49,802 nucleotides of DNA. It comes from Chthonomonadaceae bacterium. GTDB lineage: Bacteria; Armatimonadota; Chthonomonadetes; Chthonomonadales; Chthonomonadaceae. Shown here one piece after another: positions 3,328 to 7,162 of the stretch. The translations under genes were made by a program, and so were the position numbers. The stretch spans positions 1 to 49,802 of the forward strand of contig DAIDKH010000030.1 in assembly GCA_027450145.1 (NCBI GenBank). Reading direction: 5' to 3'. The notes beneath the pieces were generated by a model. It did no database searches. It saw nothing but the letters and a program-made list of their open reading frames with translations, and was not told the origin of the DNA. Position 1 is the stretch's first letter. The number at the start of each line of letters is the position of its first letter.

Positions 3328-4821
3328 CTACGGAATGAGTTTCAGGACGTTCTGCGGCTCGGAGTTCGCCTGTGCGAGTACGGAGGTTGCAGCCTGCTCA
3401 ATGATCTGTGACTTGGTAAGGTCTACCACGGTCGCTGCCACATTGGTGTCGGCAATCTGGCTCTGCGATGCCGACAGGTTCTCAGCACCTATGCCTAAGT
3501 ACTGGATCGTTGGGTTGAGCGTTTCTGCCTCGAATGCGCCAAGTCCTGCACGAAGCTGGGATACCTGCTGTATCGCGTTATCAGTTACCAGGATGGCGTT
3601 GCTCGCTCCTGCGGCGGTAGTGACGTCGATATTCGAAAGGTTCAAACCAGCAACCGCTGTTGTTCCTAGTTGCGACGTTCGGATGTTGCCAAGGCTTGCG
3701 CTTACTGTTTGACCAGAATTAGCGCCAACTTGGAATTGCAGGCTGCCCGAAGTAACGTTGGCAACGGCAACGGTGCTTCCTGTAGCATCGGTTAGGGCAC
3801 CCTCTGTTAGCAGCAGGCTGTTACCTAGAGCATCCGAGACCAGCAGTCCGCTGTCAGTGCTAGATCGGCCACCGGTGAAGGTGGAGATCGTCGTGGTTAC
3901 TGCGCCGTTTAGTAGAGCATAAGCGGTGACGGTTACAGTTGCGTTAAGGCCAGCAACCAGCGTTCCTGTGGTACCCGCGATAAGATTTGAACTCTCGTTC
4001 TCACTAATCTTGAAGTTCGCACCATAGGTTTGCTGAGAGAGGACGATTACACCAGATCCATTACCGCTACTGAATTGCGCGGAGACGCCTGTGCTACCAG
4101 AGAGGTTGTTGATGTCGTTAAGTACTGTCTGAACAGAGTCGGAAGCGGAGACCTTAATCGATTGACCGTTGATTACAATCGTGCCCCCGTTGTTATTGGC
4201 CAGCGTTCCGCCCGCTGTTGCAAGGCTCGCATTCACCGTGGCGTAAGTTACGTTACCAATGGATACTGCACGAGTGGCGACGTTGTTCACCTGAATGCTA
4301 AGCGTACCACTCTGAGTTGACAGATTGTTGAATTGGCTGCCAAGGTTGATACCGGCGACGTCCTTTGGAGTGACGATCGATGCAGTAATACCGGAGGTAC
4401 CGTCGAGAAGGTGCTTTGAGCCGAACTGCGTGTTCTCAGCGATTCGTTCAATAGAACCAACCGCTGCTGTAATTTGCTGTTGATCTGCCTGCACTGCAAC
4501 TTGGTCGTTAACACCAGTGTTGGCGGCGTGCACAGCGAGCTGTCGAATAGTATCCAGTAGACCGCTTACGGACGATAGGGCGCCATCCGCCGTTTTGATA
4601 AGGTTGTTGGCGTCCTGGCTGTTAGCAACTGCCTGGTTAAGACCGTTGATTTGAGCTTTCAGGTTCTCCGAAATGATTAAGCCAGAAGGGTTGTCGGCTG
4701 CCGAGTTAATCGCTAGCCCGCTCGAAAGTTTCTGGATGTCGCCAGCAACAGTACCACTTATGTTACCCAGGTTCCGCAACGCATCCATTGCCGTAACGTT
4801 GGTGTTGATATACAGTCCCAT
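3328..4821 (-). CDS. fliC: Flagellin, copy 1
   Basis: Structural subunit of the flagellar filament, secreted by the flagellar export apparatus. The 497-residue product opens with GLYINTNVTAMDALRNLG and SGLAINSAADNPSGLIIS (D0/D1 signature: SSGLxINxAxDxxxG) and ends with the matching C-terminal helix (DLTKSQIIEQAATSVLAQAN, then NVLKLIP). The middle, about residues 150-400, is Thr/Ser/Gly/Asn-rich and would form the exposed domains. The open frame extends 33 codons upstream to 4920, but that part is leader RNA: GGAGGAA sits 13 bases before the ATG at 4821, and the second copy starts at the same methionine. By my count it differs from copy 2 at about 17 of 497 residues, while many third-codon positions differ. 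It forms its own transcription unit with leader and terminator. Confidence 0.95.
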   Translation of the reverse strand: MGLYINTNVTAMDALRNLGNISGTVAGDIQKLSSGLAINSAADNPSGLIISENLKAQINGLNQAVANSQDANNLIKTADGALSSVSGLLDTIRQLAVHAANTGVNDQVAVQADQQQITAAVGSIERIAENTQFGSKHLLDGTSGITASIVTPKDVAGINLGSQFNNLSTQSGTLSIQVNNVATRAVSIGNVTYATVNASLATAGGTLANNNGGTIVINGQSIKVSASDSVQTVLNDINNLSGSTGVSAQFSSGNGSGVIVLSQQTYGANFKISENESSNLIAGTTGTLVAGLNATVTVTAYALLNGAVTTTISTFTGGRSSTDSGLLVSDALGNSLLLTEGALTDATGSTVAVANVTSGSLQFQVGANSGQTVSASLGNIRTSQLGTTAVAGLNLSNIDVTTAAGASNAILVTDNAIQQVSQLRAGLGAFEAETLNPTIQYLGIGAENLSASQSQIADTNVAATVVDLTKSQIIEQAATSVLAQANSEPQNVLKLIP

Positions 4822-4832
4822 AATACTTGTAG

Positions 4833-4941
4833 TTCCTCCGTGAAGGTGTAAGCTGCGACGTCCTGCCACAGCCCAGGAGTAGTCCGAAGCTCGAACTGCT
4901 TGCCTGTTACCTGGAGCCACTTAAGACTTTACTATGGCTCC
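4833..4941 (-). promoter_or_regulatory. Structured leader RNA of flagellin copy 1
   Basis: Reading 5' to 3' on the minus strand: hairpin A, arms GGAGCCA (4941-4935) and TGGCTCC (4919-4913); a region bounded by CAGG and CCTGGG that can enclose a small hairpin (GTTCGA with TCGGAC, one G-U); hairpin C, 4872-4852, GCTGTG and CGCAGC around the loop GCAGGACGT; then CACGGAGGAA, the Shine-Dalgarno, 13 bases before ATG. The same order of elements precedes copy 2, with compensatory changes in the stem of hairpin C. The exposed GGA in loop C and the ACGGA over the Shine-Dalgarno resemble CsrA/RsmA binding sites. That reading is inference. Confidence 0.55.
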
Positions 4942-5008
4942 CCTCACATATCAGTTATTCCATGCATCCAGGTAAATTTAACATGTTCCTTGGTTTTTTT
5001 ATAACTTT

Positions 5009-5016
5009 TTATCGGC
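5009..5016 (-). promoter_or_regulatory. Possible sigma-28 -10 element of flagellin copy 1
   Basis: The minus strand reads GCCGATAA, identical to the classic flagellar sigma-28 (FliA/SigD) -10 element, and would start transcription some 180 bases before the flagellin ATG. No TAAA lies at the usual 15-base distance, and copy 2 has only a degenerate match (AATCATAA) in the equivalent place. Tentative. Confidence 0.3.
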
Positions 5017-5254
5017 AAGTTTACCAGTATTGGGATTTGCAGTAAATTGGTGAGTAACTATCTGCCAATTCGGGCTCGTTGTGCTAATAATCTAAGCGCT
5101 CAATAAATCGTAGTCCGTGTCAAGGATTAACTGACCAGATAATCCGGTGCGAGGTCTGCTGGCGAACAGGAGATCTCAGCTGGGTCGTGATTTATTCATG
5201 AATTATCAAGGTTGATTGCAGTAATTGCGGTTTACGCATGATGCCAATAACAAT

Positions 5255-5281
5255 GCCCCCTGGTTTTAATAACCTGGGGGC
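5255..5281 (-). terminator. Hairpin terminator of second flagellin gene
   Basis: Arms GCCCCCTGGTT (5255-5265) and AACCTGGGGGC (5271-5281) pair with one mismatch; on the minus strand the stem is followed by ATTGTTATTGG. It lies 34 bases past the stop, the same distance as in copy 1, although the stem sequence differs. Confidence 0.72.
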
Positions 5282-5315
5282 GTTTGATTTCCGTACAAGT
5301 CGACGGTTAGAGACC

Positions 5316-6809
5316 TTACGGTATGAGCTTCAGGACGTTCTGCGGCTCTGCGTTGGCCTGTGCCAGCACGGAGGTTGCAGCCTGCTCAATGATCTGCGAC
5401 TTGGTAAGGTCTACCACGGTCGCTGCAACGTTGGTGTCGGCGATCTGGCTTTGTGACGCCGACAAGTTCTCTGCGCCTATGCCTAAATACTGGATGGTAG
5501 GGTTGAGGGTTTCTGCCTCAAAGGCGCCAAGTCCTGCACGAAGCTGAGACACTTGCTGAATAGCGTTATCAGTGACCAGGATGGCGTTGCTCGCACCGCT
5601 GGCTGTTGTAACGTCGATATTGGACAGGTTCAAACCTGCCACAGCCGTAGTTCCCAATTGGGAGGTACGTATGTTGCCAAGGCTTGCACTCACCGTTTGT
5701 CCTGCGTTGGCTCCTACCTGGAACTGCAGGCTTCCTGAAGTTACATTGGCAACCGCAACAGTGCTGCCTGTAGCATCGGTTAGGGCACCCTCGGTTAGCA
5801 GCAGGCTGTTACCCAGAGTGTCGGAGACCAACAGACCGCTGTCGGTGCTGGATCGGCCACCGGTGAACGTTGAGACGGTAGTTGTTACCGCGCCGTTTAG
5901 CAACGCATAAGCGGTGACGGTGACGGTTGCATTAAGGCCTGCAACCAGCGTTCCTGTGGTGCCCGCGATAAGATTTGAACTTTCATTCTCACTAATCTTA
6001 AAGTTGGCGCCGTAAGTCTGCTGAGACAGAACGATCACGCCGGATCCATTGCCGCTGCTGAACTGAGCGGATACACCGGTACTTGCCGACAGGTTGTTAA
6101 TGTCGTTAAGGACTGTCTGCACGGAATCAGATGCTGAAACCTTGATTGACTGACCATTAATAACAATTGTGCCGCCGTTGTTATTGACAAGCGTACCGCC
6201 AGCGGTTGCGAGCGTCGAGTTAACGGTAGCGTAGGTAACTGTGCCAACTGCAAGTGCACGAGTAGCGACGTTGTTTACCTGGATGCTTAGCGTACCACTC
6301 TGTGTAGAGAGGTTGTTAAACTGACTGCCCAGGTTGATGCCAGCAACGTCCTTTGTGTCCATGATTGATGCTGTGATACCAGAGGTGCCATCGAGCAGAT
6401 GCTTAGATCCGAACTGCGTGTTCTCCGCAATTCGCTCTATGGATCCAACGGCTGCTGTAATCTGCTGTTGGTCTGCTTGCACCGCAACCTGGTCGTTTAC
6501 ACCGGTGTTGGCGGCATGCACCGCAAGCTGTCGAATTGTATCCAAAAGACCACTTACTGACGAAAGGGCGCCGTCGGCAGTTTTGATGAGGTTGTTGGCG
6601 TCCTGGCTGTTTGCAACTGCCTGGTTAAGACCGTTGATCTGAGCCTTCAAACTTTCGGAGATAATCAAACCAGACGGGTTGTCGGCGGCTGAGTTAATAG
6701 CCAAACCGCTCGAAAGTTTCTGGATGTCGCCGGCTACCGTTCCACTGATGTTACCCAGGTTCCGCAACGCATCCATTGCCGTAACGTTGGTGTTGATGTA
6801 CAGTCCCAT
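5316..6809 (-). CDS. fliC: Flagellin, copy 2
   Basis: Second filament subunit, 497 residues, collinear with copy 1 without any length change. The D0/D1 ends are the same except for single substitutions (ISESLK against ISENLK; ANAEPQ against ANSEPQ). Differences cluster near residues 149-153 and 188-203 (RALAVGTVTY against RAVSIGNVTY) at the edge of the exposed domain. GGAGGAAAC precedes the ATG at 6809 by 13 bases. It sits about 0.5 kb upstream of copy 1 in tandem, with its own leader RNA and terminator, so the two are probably transcribed separately. High protein identity with scattered silent changes points to purifying selection or gene conversion after an older duplication. No other structural flagellar gene lies in the window. 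Confidence 0.95.
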   Translation of the reverse strand: MGLYINTNVTAMDALRNLGNISGTVAGDIQKLSSGLAINSAADNPSGLIISESLKAQINGLNQAVANSQDANNLIKTADGALSSVSGLLDTIRQLAVHAANTGVNDQVAVQADQQQITAAVGSIERIAENTQFGSKHLLDGTSGITASIMDTKDVAGINLGSQFNNLSTQSGTLSIQVNNVATRALAVGTVTYATVNSTLATAGGTLVNNNGGTIVINGQSIKVSASDSVQTVLNDINNLSASTGVSAQFSSGNGSGVIVLSQQTYGANFKISENESSNLIAGTTGTLVAGLNATVTVTAYALLNGAVTTTVSTFTGGRSSTDSGLLVSDTLGNSLLLTEGALTDATGSTVAVANVTSGSLQFQVGANAGQTVSASLGNIRTSQLGTTAVAGLNLSNIDVTTASGASNAILVTDNAIQQVSQLRAGLGAFEAETLNPTIQYLGIGAENLSASQSQIADTNVAATVVDLTKSQIIEQAATSVLAQANAEPQNVLKLIP

Positions 6810-6820
6810 ATGTCTTCTGT

Positions 6821-6929
6821 TTCCTCCGTGAGGGGTTTTGATGCAACTTCCTGCTGCATCCCAGGTGAGTGACAGTATTGTCTAGAATTACCTGATCCCC
6901 GGAGCAACGGCAGATTTTCCGTTGGCTCC
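6821..6929 (-). promoter_or_regulatory. Structured leader RNA of flagellin copy 2
   Basis: Same layout as in copy 1: hairpin A (6929-6901, GGAGCCAACGG pairing with CCGTTGCTCC, one bulged C); CAGGT and ACCTG bracketing an inner GACA-ATAC-TGTC hairpin; hairpin C (6860-6840), a perfect 6-base stem GATGCA/TGCATC around the loop GCAGGAAGT; then CACGGAGGAA over the Shine-Dalgarno. The stem of hairpin C differs from copy 1 at both sides while the loop is almost unchanged, which is covariation. Confidence 0.55.
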
Positions 6930-7100
6930 ATTCACACAGTATTATTTCCATTTATTCAGGCATAAATAACATCCAGTTTAATCTTTTTTATGATTTGCAG
7001 GCCCTATAAGGTTAATATGGTTAAAAATCTTTTGGTTTAGGCACTTTAAGCATGTTTGTGGTCCCGCGTTGATCGTTGAGGAACACTTACAGGCAAAATA

Positions 7101-7129
7101 AGAATGCCAGCAGCGGTTGCTGGCATTCT
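7101..7129 (-). terminator. Rho-independent terminator of msrA
   Basis: Perfect 12-base stem (7101-7112 with 7118-7129, AGAATGCCAGCA arm) with loop GCGGT; on the minus strand it runs into TATTTTGCC. It lies 34 bases past the msrA stop. Confidence 0.88.
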
Positions 7130-7162
7130 GAATTAAAGACCATGGAGATTACACGGTCACAG

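Follow-up and report, generated by a model that had tools for sequence, protein, structure and literature searches.

In Bacillus subtilis, CsrA bound to the leader of the flagellin gene hag, at an upstream site and at a site over the Shine-Dalgarno (SD) sequence, blocks the ribosome, and CsrA is removed by FliW (PMC7652899, PMC6529632, PMC8523840). The two sites have been located at A51-A55 (BS1) and C75-G82 (BS2), one of them over the SD (PMC8523840). A single-stranded GGA in a hairpin loop is a known determinant of CsrA recognition, the repeat of the CsrB RNA reads CAGGA(U/A/C)G, and CsrA dimers bridge sites lying 10-63 nt apart (PMC7652899). Five-nucleotide loops of the form A-GGA-X bind the CsrA homologue RsmE, with a lower affinity for loops lacking the N of the optimal ANGGAN hexaloop (PMC4005645). 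A literature search returned no paper on CsrA-FliW control of flagellin in Armatimonadota.

The window (the whole stretch of DNA analysed here, 49,802 nucleotides) belongs to a 4.14-Mb Armatimonadota genome (G000) with three flagellin genes, each preceded by a separate leader. The closest relatives of this genome that carry a name are Chthonomonadaceae/Chthonomonadales MAGs. Two of these genes lie in the window, on the minus strand, with ATG codons at 6809 and 4821. Leader 1 (6820-6942, minus strand) is located upstream of the flagellin gene at 6809..5316, with a Pfam Flagellin_N match directly 3' of the leader, and leader 2 (4833-4950, minus strand) is located upstream of the flagellin gene at 4821..3328. 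Both contain hairpins A, B and C, followed by UCACGGAGGA and the ATG, in this order. The features are as follows:

6942..6970, minus strand: putative flagellar-type promoter of flagellin gene 1, TTAT...TGGAAATAA, of a kind that relatives also have 5' of this leader type
6901..6929, minus strand: hairpin A of leader 1, GGAGC...GCUCC, a predicted fold whose pairs are kept, apart from single exceptions, across the genus's five leaders
6897..6900, minus strand: 5' strand of the P1 junction helix of leader 1, GGGG, with its partner at 6832-6835 in the RNAalifold consensus
6862..6894, minus strand: hairpin B of leader 1, CAGGU...ACCUG, kept within the genus, not outside it
6840..6860, minus strand: hairpin C of leader 1, GAUGCAGC-AGGAA-GUUGCAUC, proposed CsrA site 1, with covariation and a score of 25.1 bits
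6832..6835, minus strand: 3' strand of the P1 junction helix of leader 1, CCCC
6822..6831, minus strand: SD of leader 1 with the overlapping ACGGA, UCACGGAGGA, proposed CsrA site 2
5316..6809, minus strand: flagellin gene 1, 497 aa, Pfam Flagellin_N at 109 bits
4955..4982, minus strand: putative flagellar-type promoter of flagellin gene 2, TAAA-N14-TGGAATAA, of a kind that relatives also have 5' of this leader type
4913..4941, minus strand: hairpin A of leader 2, GGAGCCA...UGGCUCC, a predicted fold
4909..4912, minus strand: 5' strand of the P1 junction helix of leader 2, AGGU, with its partner at 4844-4847 (ACCU)
4874..4906, minus strand: hairpin B of leader 2, CAGG...CCUG, a predicted fold
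4852..4872, minus strand: hairpin C of leader 2, GCUGUGGC-AGGAC-GUCGCAGC, proposed CsrA site 1, with covariation and a score of 22.9 bits
4844..4847, minus strand: 3' strand of the P1 junction helix of leader 2, ACCU
4834..4843, minus strand: SD of leader 2 with the overlapping ACGGA, UCACGGAGGA, proposed CsrA site 2
3328..4821, minus strand: flagellin gene 2, ATG at 4821, 97% identical to gene 1

The identity between the two genes falls from 97% for the proteins to 84% for the coding DNA and 62% for the leaders. One leader of the sister species G023 matches leader 1 (6942-6810) at 95% identity, and a different G023 leader matches leader 2 (4950-4822) at 77%, indicating that the two leaders diverged earlier than the species and have remained distinct. 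The longest open reading frame of flagellin gene 2 (3328-4920, 530 aa), with a GTG start at 4920 inside the leader, is an over-extension, through which automatic annotation could wrongly add 33 residues to flagellin 2 and mask the leader. GC-rich inverted repeats with a terminator-like look are present within 5250-5290 (CGCCCCCAGG...CCAGGGGGC), 3' of flagellin gene 1, and within 7100-7130 (GAATGCCAGCAACCGCTGCTGGCATTC), between this gene and the next gene upstream. For the putative promoters of the window's leader type, the upstream sequences of relatives yielded the consensus TAAA-N14-TGGAAYAA. Two promoter types precede flagellin leaders in the family, a sigma-28-like TAAA-N15-GCCGAAAAT and the variant found in the window, and they accompany different leader layouts.

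According to the original prediction, the stem of hairpin C changes on both sides between the two leaders, around a fixed loop. Two pairs do differ on both sides (A-U to C-G and A-U to G-C) and one differs on one side, with a loop of AGGAA in leader 1 and AGGAC in leader 2. The regions upstream of flagellin genes in 18 genomes of the order, together with those from other orders of the phylum, contained two persistent features: a hairpin whose loop reads C-NGGAN-G (in almost every case C-AGGA[A/U/C]-G) and an SD site of the form UCA[C/U/A]GGAGGA, the latter in nearly all leaders of the order. Among the 26 distinct hairpins of the order, 85.7% of cells were paired and 39 cells were double changes, against 15.3 in shuffles (0/500 as high); the covariation score was 0.554, versus 0.218 for shuffles and 0.07-0.17 with the partners slid, and sliding the partners by 1-3 columns reduced the paired cells to 28-50%. 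The change on both sides of the stem was thus borne out by covariation over 26 leaders, and the homologous leaders with compensatory changes sought in related genomes were found. Of the 32 leaders of the order, 26 contained an NGGAN pentaloop hairpin of at least 5 bp, against an expectation of 0.54 derived from dinucleotide shuffles; in two of these 26 (G022_2 and G020_2), the longest such hairpin was not hairpin C. One leader of the order (G021_1) had no recognisable hairpin C, and the pentaloop hairpin was found in none of the seven leaders of a divergent second flagellin type from the same genomes. Outside the order, a Watson-Crick version of at least 4 bp was detected in seven of nine leaders of family f6 (0.11 expected) and a version with a loop of 5 or 6 nt in five of ten leaders of family f14 (0.22 expected); several other families had no such hairpin. 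These observations confirm a real, conserved and covarying leader RNA. A divergent flagellin-like gene (MDFSLLNNLNAM...), represented at G000:C60:18240-18660 (L099) and in relatives, is without the CsrA hairpin and often without a GGAGGA SD.

A covariance model based on 27 leaders of the order (R1) was used to search 251 genomes of the phylum. The 22 top-ranking matches (E < 1e-6) were leaders of the order, nearly all of them training leaders and therefore mostly not independent. Independent support was provided by a flagellin outside the training set (G019:C1:1459686) and, beyond the order, by four matches directly 5' of flagellin genes (L221, L230, L232 and L233); several other weak matches were not 5' of flagellins. 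With a second model, built without the window's genus (R2), the three flagellin leaders of the genome scored 42.8, 25.1 (leader 1) and 22.9 bits (leader 2), the values for the two window leaders coming from a separate search, as the genome-wide search pre-filters candidates and missed both. The next best match reached 10.9 bits in the window, so the predicted leader RNA stands out from background, and 21.0 bits in the genome. This last match (G000:C3:71131), the only non-flagellin match near the flagellin scores, was considered as a candidate for a wider CsrA regulon and rejected, its hairpin having no GGA loop.

The paired sites are almost exclusive to flagellin. The pattern GCAGGANGY-N8-38-TCAHGGAGG had three matches in the 4.14 Mb of the genome, exactly 5' of its three flagellins, and the reversed pattern, used as a control, had none. 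Three matches each were obtained in G022 and G023, all 5' of flagellins, and further ones in G014, G019 and G025 preceded flagellin starts that had not contributed training leaders, in some cases at contig ends. In flagellin-less genomes, the matches mostly had no gene start at the right distance and resembled chance occurrences within coding sequence. The two GGA sites are about 25 nt apart in the window leaders, the second overlapping the SD and falling within the bridging range (10-63 nt). Hairpin C and the GGAGG of the SD are separated by 12 nt in each of the window leaders, and by 12-18 or 32-55 nt in the order as a whole. The long spacers themselves form a hairpin, so that the unpaired distance is again 11-18 nt for most of them. 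This pattern hints that the effective distance between the sites has been maintained but does not prove it, because a gap of 55 nt could itself be bridged. A CCCGGC-AGGAA-GCCGGG hairpin followed by AGGAGGA was also observed before a gene for a probably exported non-flagellin protein (L224, G223:C2:212051-212090), a possible CsrA target.

The presence of csrA and fliW had been proposed as a check, and profile searches found both in the genome: csrA (75 aa, 89 bits) at G000:C108:6834 and fliW (131 bits) at G000:C112:6462, adjoining flgL. The two genes lie on different contigs here, and they are neighbours in many relatives. Within the order, csrA was detected in 18 of 18 flagellin-bearing and 4 of 13 flagellin-less genomes (Fisher p 3.5e-5), and fliW in 16 of 18 and 1 of 13, respectively (Fisher p 7.6e-6), p-values that are optimistic because the relatives share ancestry. 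No fliW match was obtained in G022 (94% complete). Two well-complete genomes of the family (G017 and G018) have csrA, with no fliW and no flagellin by the search used. In an alignment with solved CsrA/RsmE chains, residues L4, T5, R6 and V42-H43-R44 of CsrA, known RNA-contacting positions, were conserved, and the best solved match of the genome's own CsrA was chain 5dmb_D, a CsrA solved with FliW.

The loop, the two sites, the presence of csrA and fliW and their co-occurrence with flagellin, the near-exclusive placement before flagellin genes and the layouts in phyla with the known mechanism (see below) all support the CsrA-type target put forward in the original prediction. We consider it highly probable that the leader is a two-site CsrA target within a Bacillus-like CsrA-FliW-flagellin feedback, with binding, repression and release by FliW as the steps that we infer. 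One CsrA dimer would contact both the loop GGA of hairpin C (site 1) and the SD-overlapping GGA (site 2); with the dimer on both sites, the ribosome could not bind and flagellin translation would be repressed. CsrA would be removed by FliW, a protein that unexported flagellin sequesters, and the net outcome would be the production of flagellin only during its export. On this reading, the leader adds an instance to an established type of control rather than representing a novel class of RNA switch.

Both leaders fold stably, with minimum free energies of -47.0 (leader 1) and -46.5 kcal/mol (leader 2), z-scores of -4.02 and -2.84, respectively, and 0/200 shuffles as stable. The genus has five leaders of the window's type, each spanning 114-115 nt from UGUGA to GGAGGA, for which RNAalifold predicted hairpin A and a short P1 enclosing hairpins B and C, with the SD just 3'; two pairs of P1 change on both sides among these five leaders. 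Outside the genus, hairpins A and B are missing or replaced by other hairpins, and hairpin C and the SD site remain. The prediction of three elements in a fixed order thus holds within the genus, but beyond it only hairpin C and the SD site persist. Pairing of the GUGA at the 5' end of the leader with the UCAC of the SD site appeared in the genus folds and was rejected, as it was no better than chance over 11 leaders (mean z -0.29), rendering the outer architecture uncertain. P1 was supported in ten family leaders of another layout (GCCCG/CGGGC type; z -0.8 to -3.4), and was unsupported as a general feature in three leaders tested from other families. This other layout, found in relatives and before the genome's third flagellin (L068, L073, L077, L083 and L093), is a three-way junction in which the CsrA hairpin and a spacer hairpin that varies freely lie within P1 (GCCCG/CGGGC, with ACCCG/CGGGU as a variant), followed by the SD.

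Hairpins A and B and P1 probably serve as a scaffold, contribute to mRNA stability and keep site 1 near site 2. It is conceivable, but rather unlikely, that an active part in setting how far apart and how exposed the two sites are, or in binding FliW as well, falls to P1 with A and B or to the inserted spacer hairpin, in which case the leader would be a lineage-specific composite protein-sensing RNA scaffold. A ligand-sensing riboswitch, responding for example to a nucleotide second messenger, with hairpins switching the SD between free and hidden, would fit the stable multi-branched fold and the double changes of P1. However, no unpaired core is conserved apart from the GGA loop and the SD; between genera, hairpins A and B vary freely, and the near-invariant letters are only those expected of CsrA sites. 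Rfam gave no match at the gathering score over the whole window and, at a loose threshold on both leaders, only chance matches (E up to 5). The leader matches no Rfam family and bears no sign of a ligand-binding riboswitch, in line with the earlier failure to match it to any known riboswitch consensus, and we hold this explanation to be very improbable. There is similarly little to recommend a model in which CsrA binds and affects chiefly the decay or localisation of the mRNA, not the access of the ribosome: CsrA also lowers the hag transcript level in B. subtilis (PMC6529632), and the Campylobacter CsrA-FliW network controls flagellin mRNA localisation (PMC4894983), but in nearly all leaders site 2 sits right over the SD, an arrangement that speaks for exclusion of the ribosome. 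Finally, the hairpins are most unlikely to be mRNA-stabilising or spacing elements only, with the conserved UCACGGAGGA merely a strong SD, for although the outer hairpins vary in sequence as plain stabilisers would, a stabiliser would not require an AGGAN loop that stays constant as the stem varies, and the paired sites go together with flagellin and with genomes bearing csrA and fliW.

If the two-site CsrA target reading is correct, the predicted range of CsrA-FliW control of flagellin comes to include the phylum Armatimonadota. In these genomes the paired-site signature is all but confined to flagellin, in keeping with a possible role of CsrA as a dedicated flagellin regulator in FliW-bearing bacteria. 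The leaders also provide a test set, with dozens of cases of a fixed AGGAN loop of 5 nt, whereas the textbook optimum is six; if the CsrA of this lineage does prefer 5-nt loops, the loop-size specificity of CsrA becomes testable.

The loop is AGGAN, of 5 nt, throughout the order, rather than the ANGGAN hexaloop, a form that high-affinity sites prefer but that does not define a CsrA target. In other phyla, flagellin leaders (from the Firmicutes Sporolactobacillus and Peptococcaceae, and from Calditrichaeota and Hydrogenedentota) carry the classical form, an NNGGAN hexaloop hairpin 12-25 nt 5' of the SD, such as CCAC-ACGGAC-GUGG in Sporolactobacillus and CCAC-AUGGAU-GUGG in Peptococcaceae; the 5-nt-loop form of Chthonomonadales is a variant of this 6-nt ANGGAN layout. 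The loop of site 1, C-AGGAN-G, has the same letters as the CsrB repeat, and SL3 and SL4 of RsmZ likewise have 5-nt A-GGA-X loops (PMC7652899, PMC4005645), but CsrB and RsmZ are sequestering small RNAs, whereas the element described here is a cis-acting mRNA leader. In Campylobacter, the flaA leader is similarly the main CsrA target, in a genome with FliW and without sponge RNAs (PMC4894983). B. subtilis hag shares with this locus the flagellin gene, the two GGA sites, one upstream and one over the SD, and the presence of csrA and fliW in the genome. The leaders of the window differ from it in having a loop of 5 rather than 6 nt, a longer stem (8-9 bp) and the additional hairpins A and B and junction helix P1, and the system differs in the spacer hairpin between the sites in many relatives, the three flagellin copies with separate leaders and the location of fliW and csrA on different contigs.
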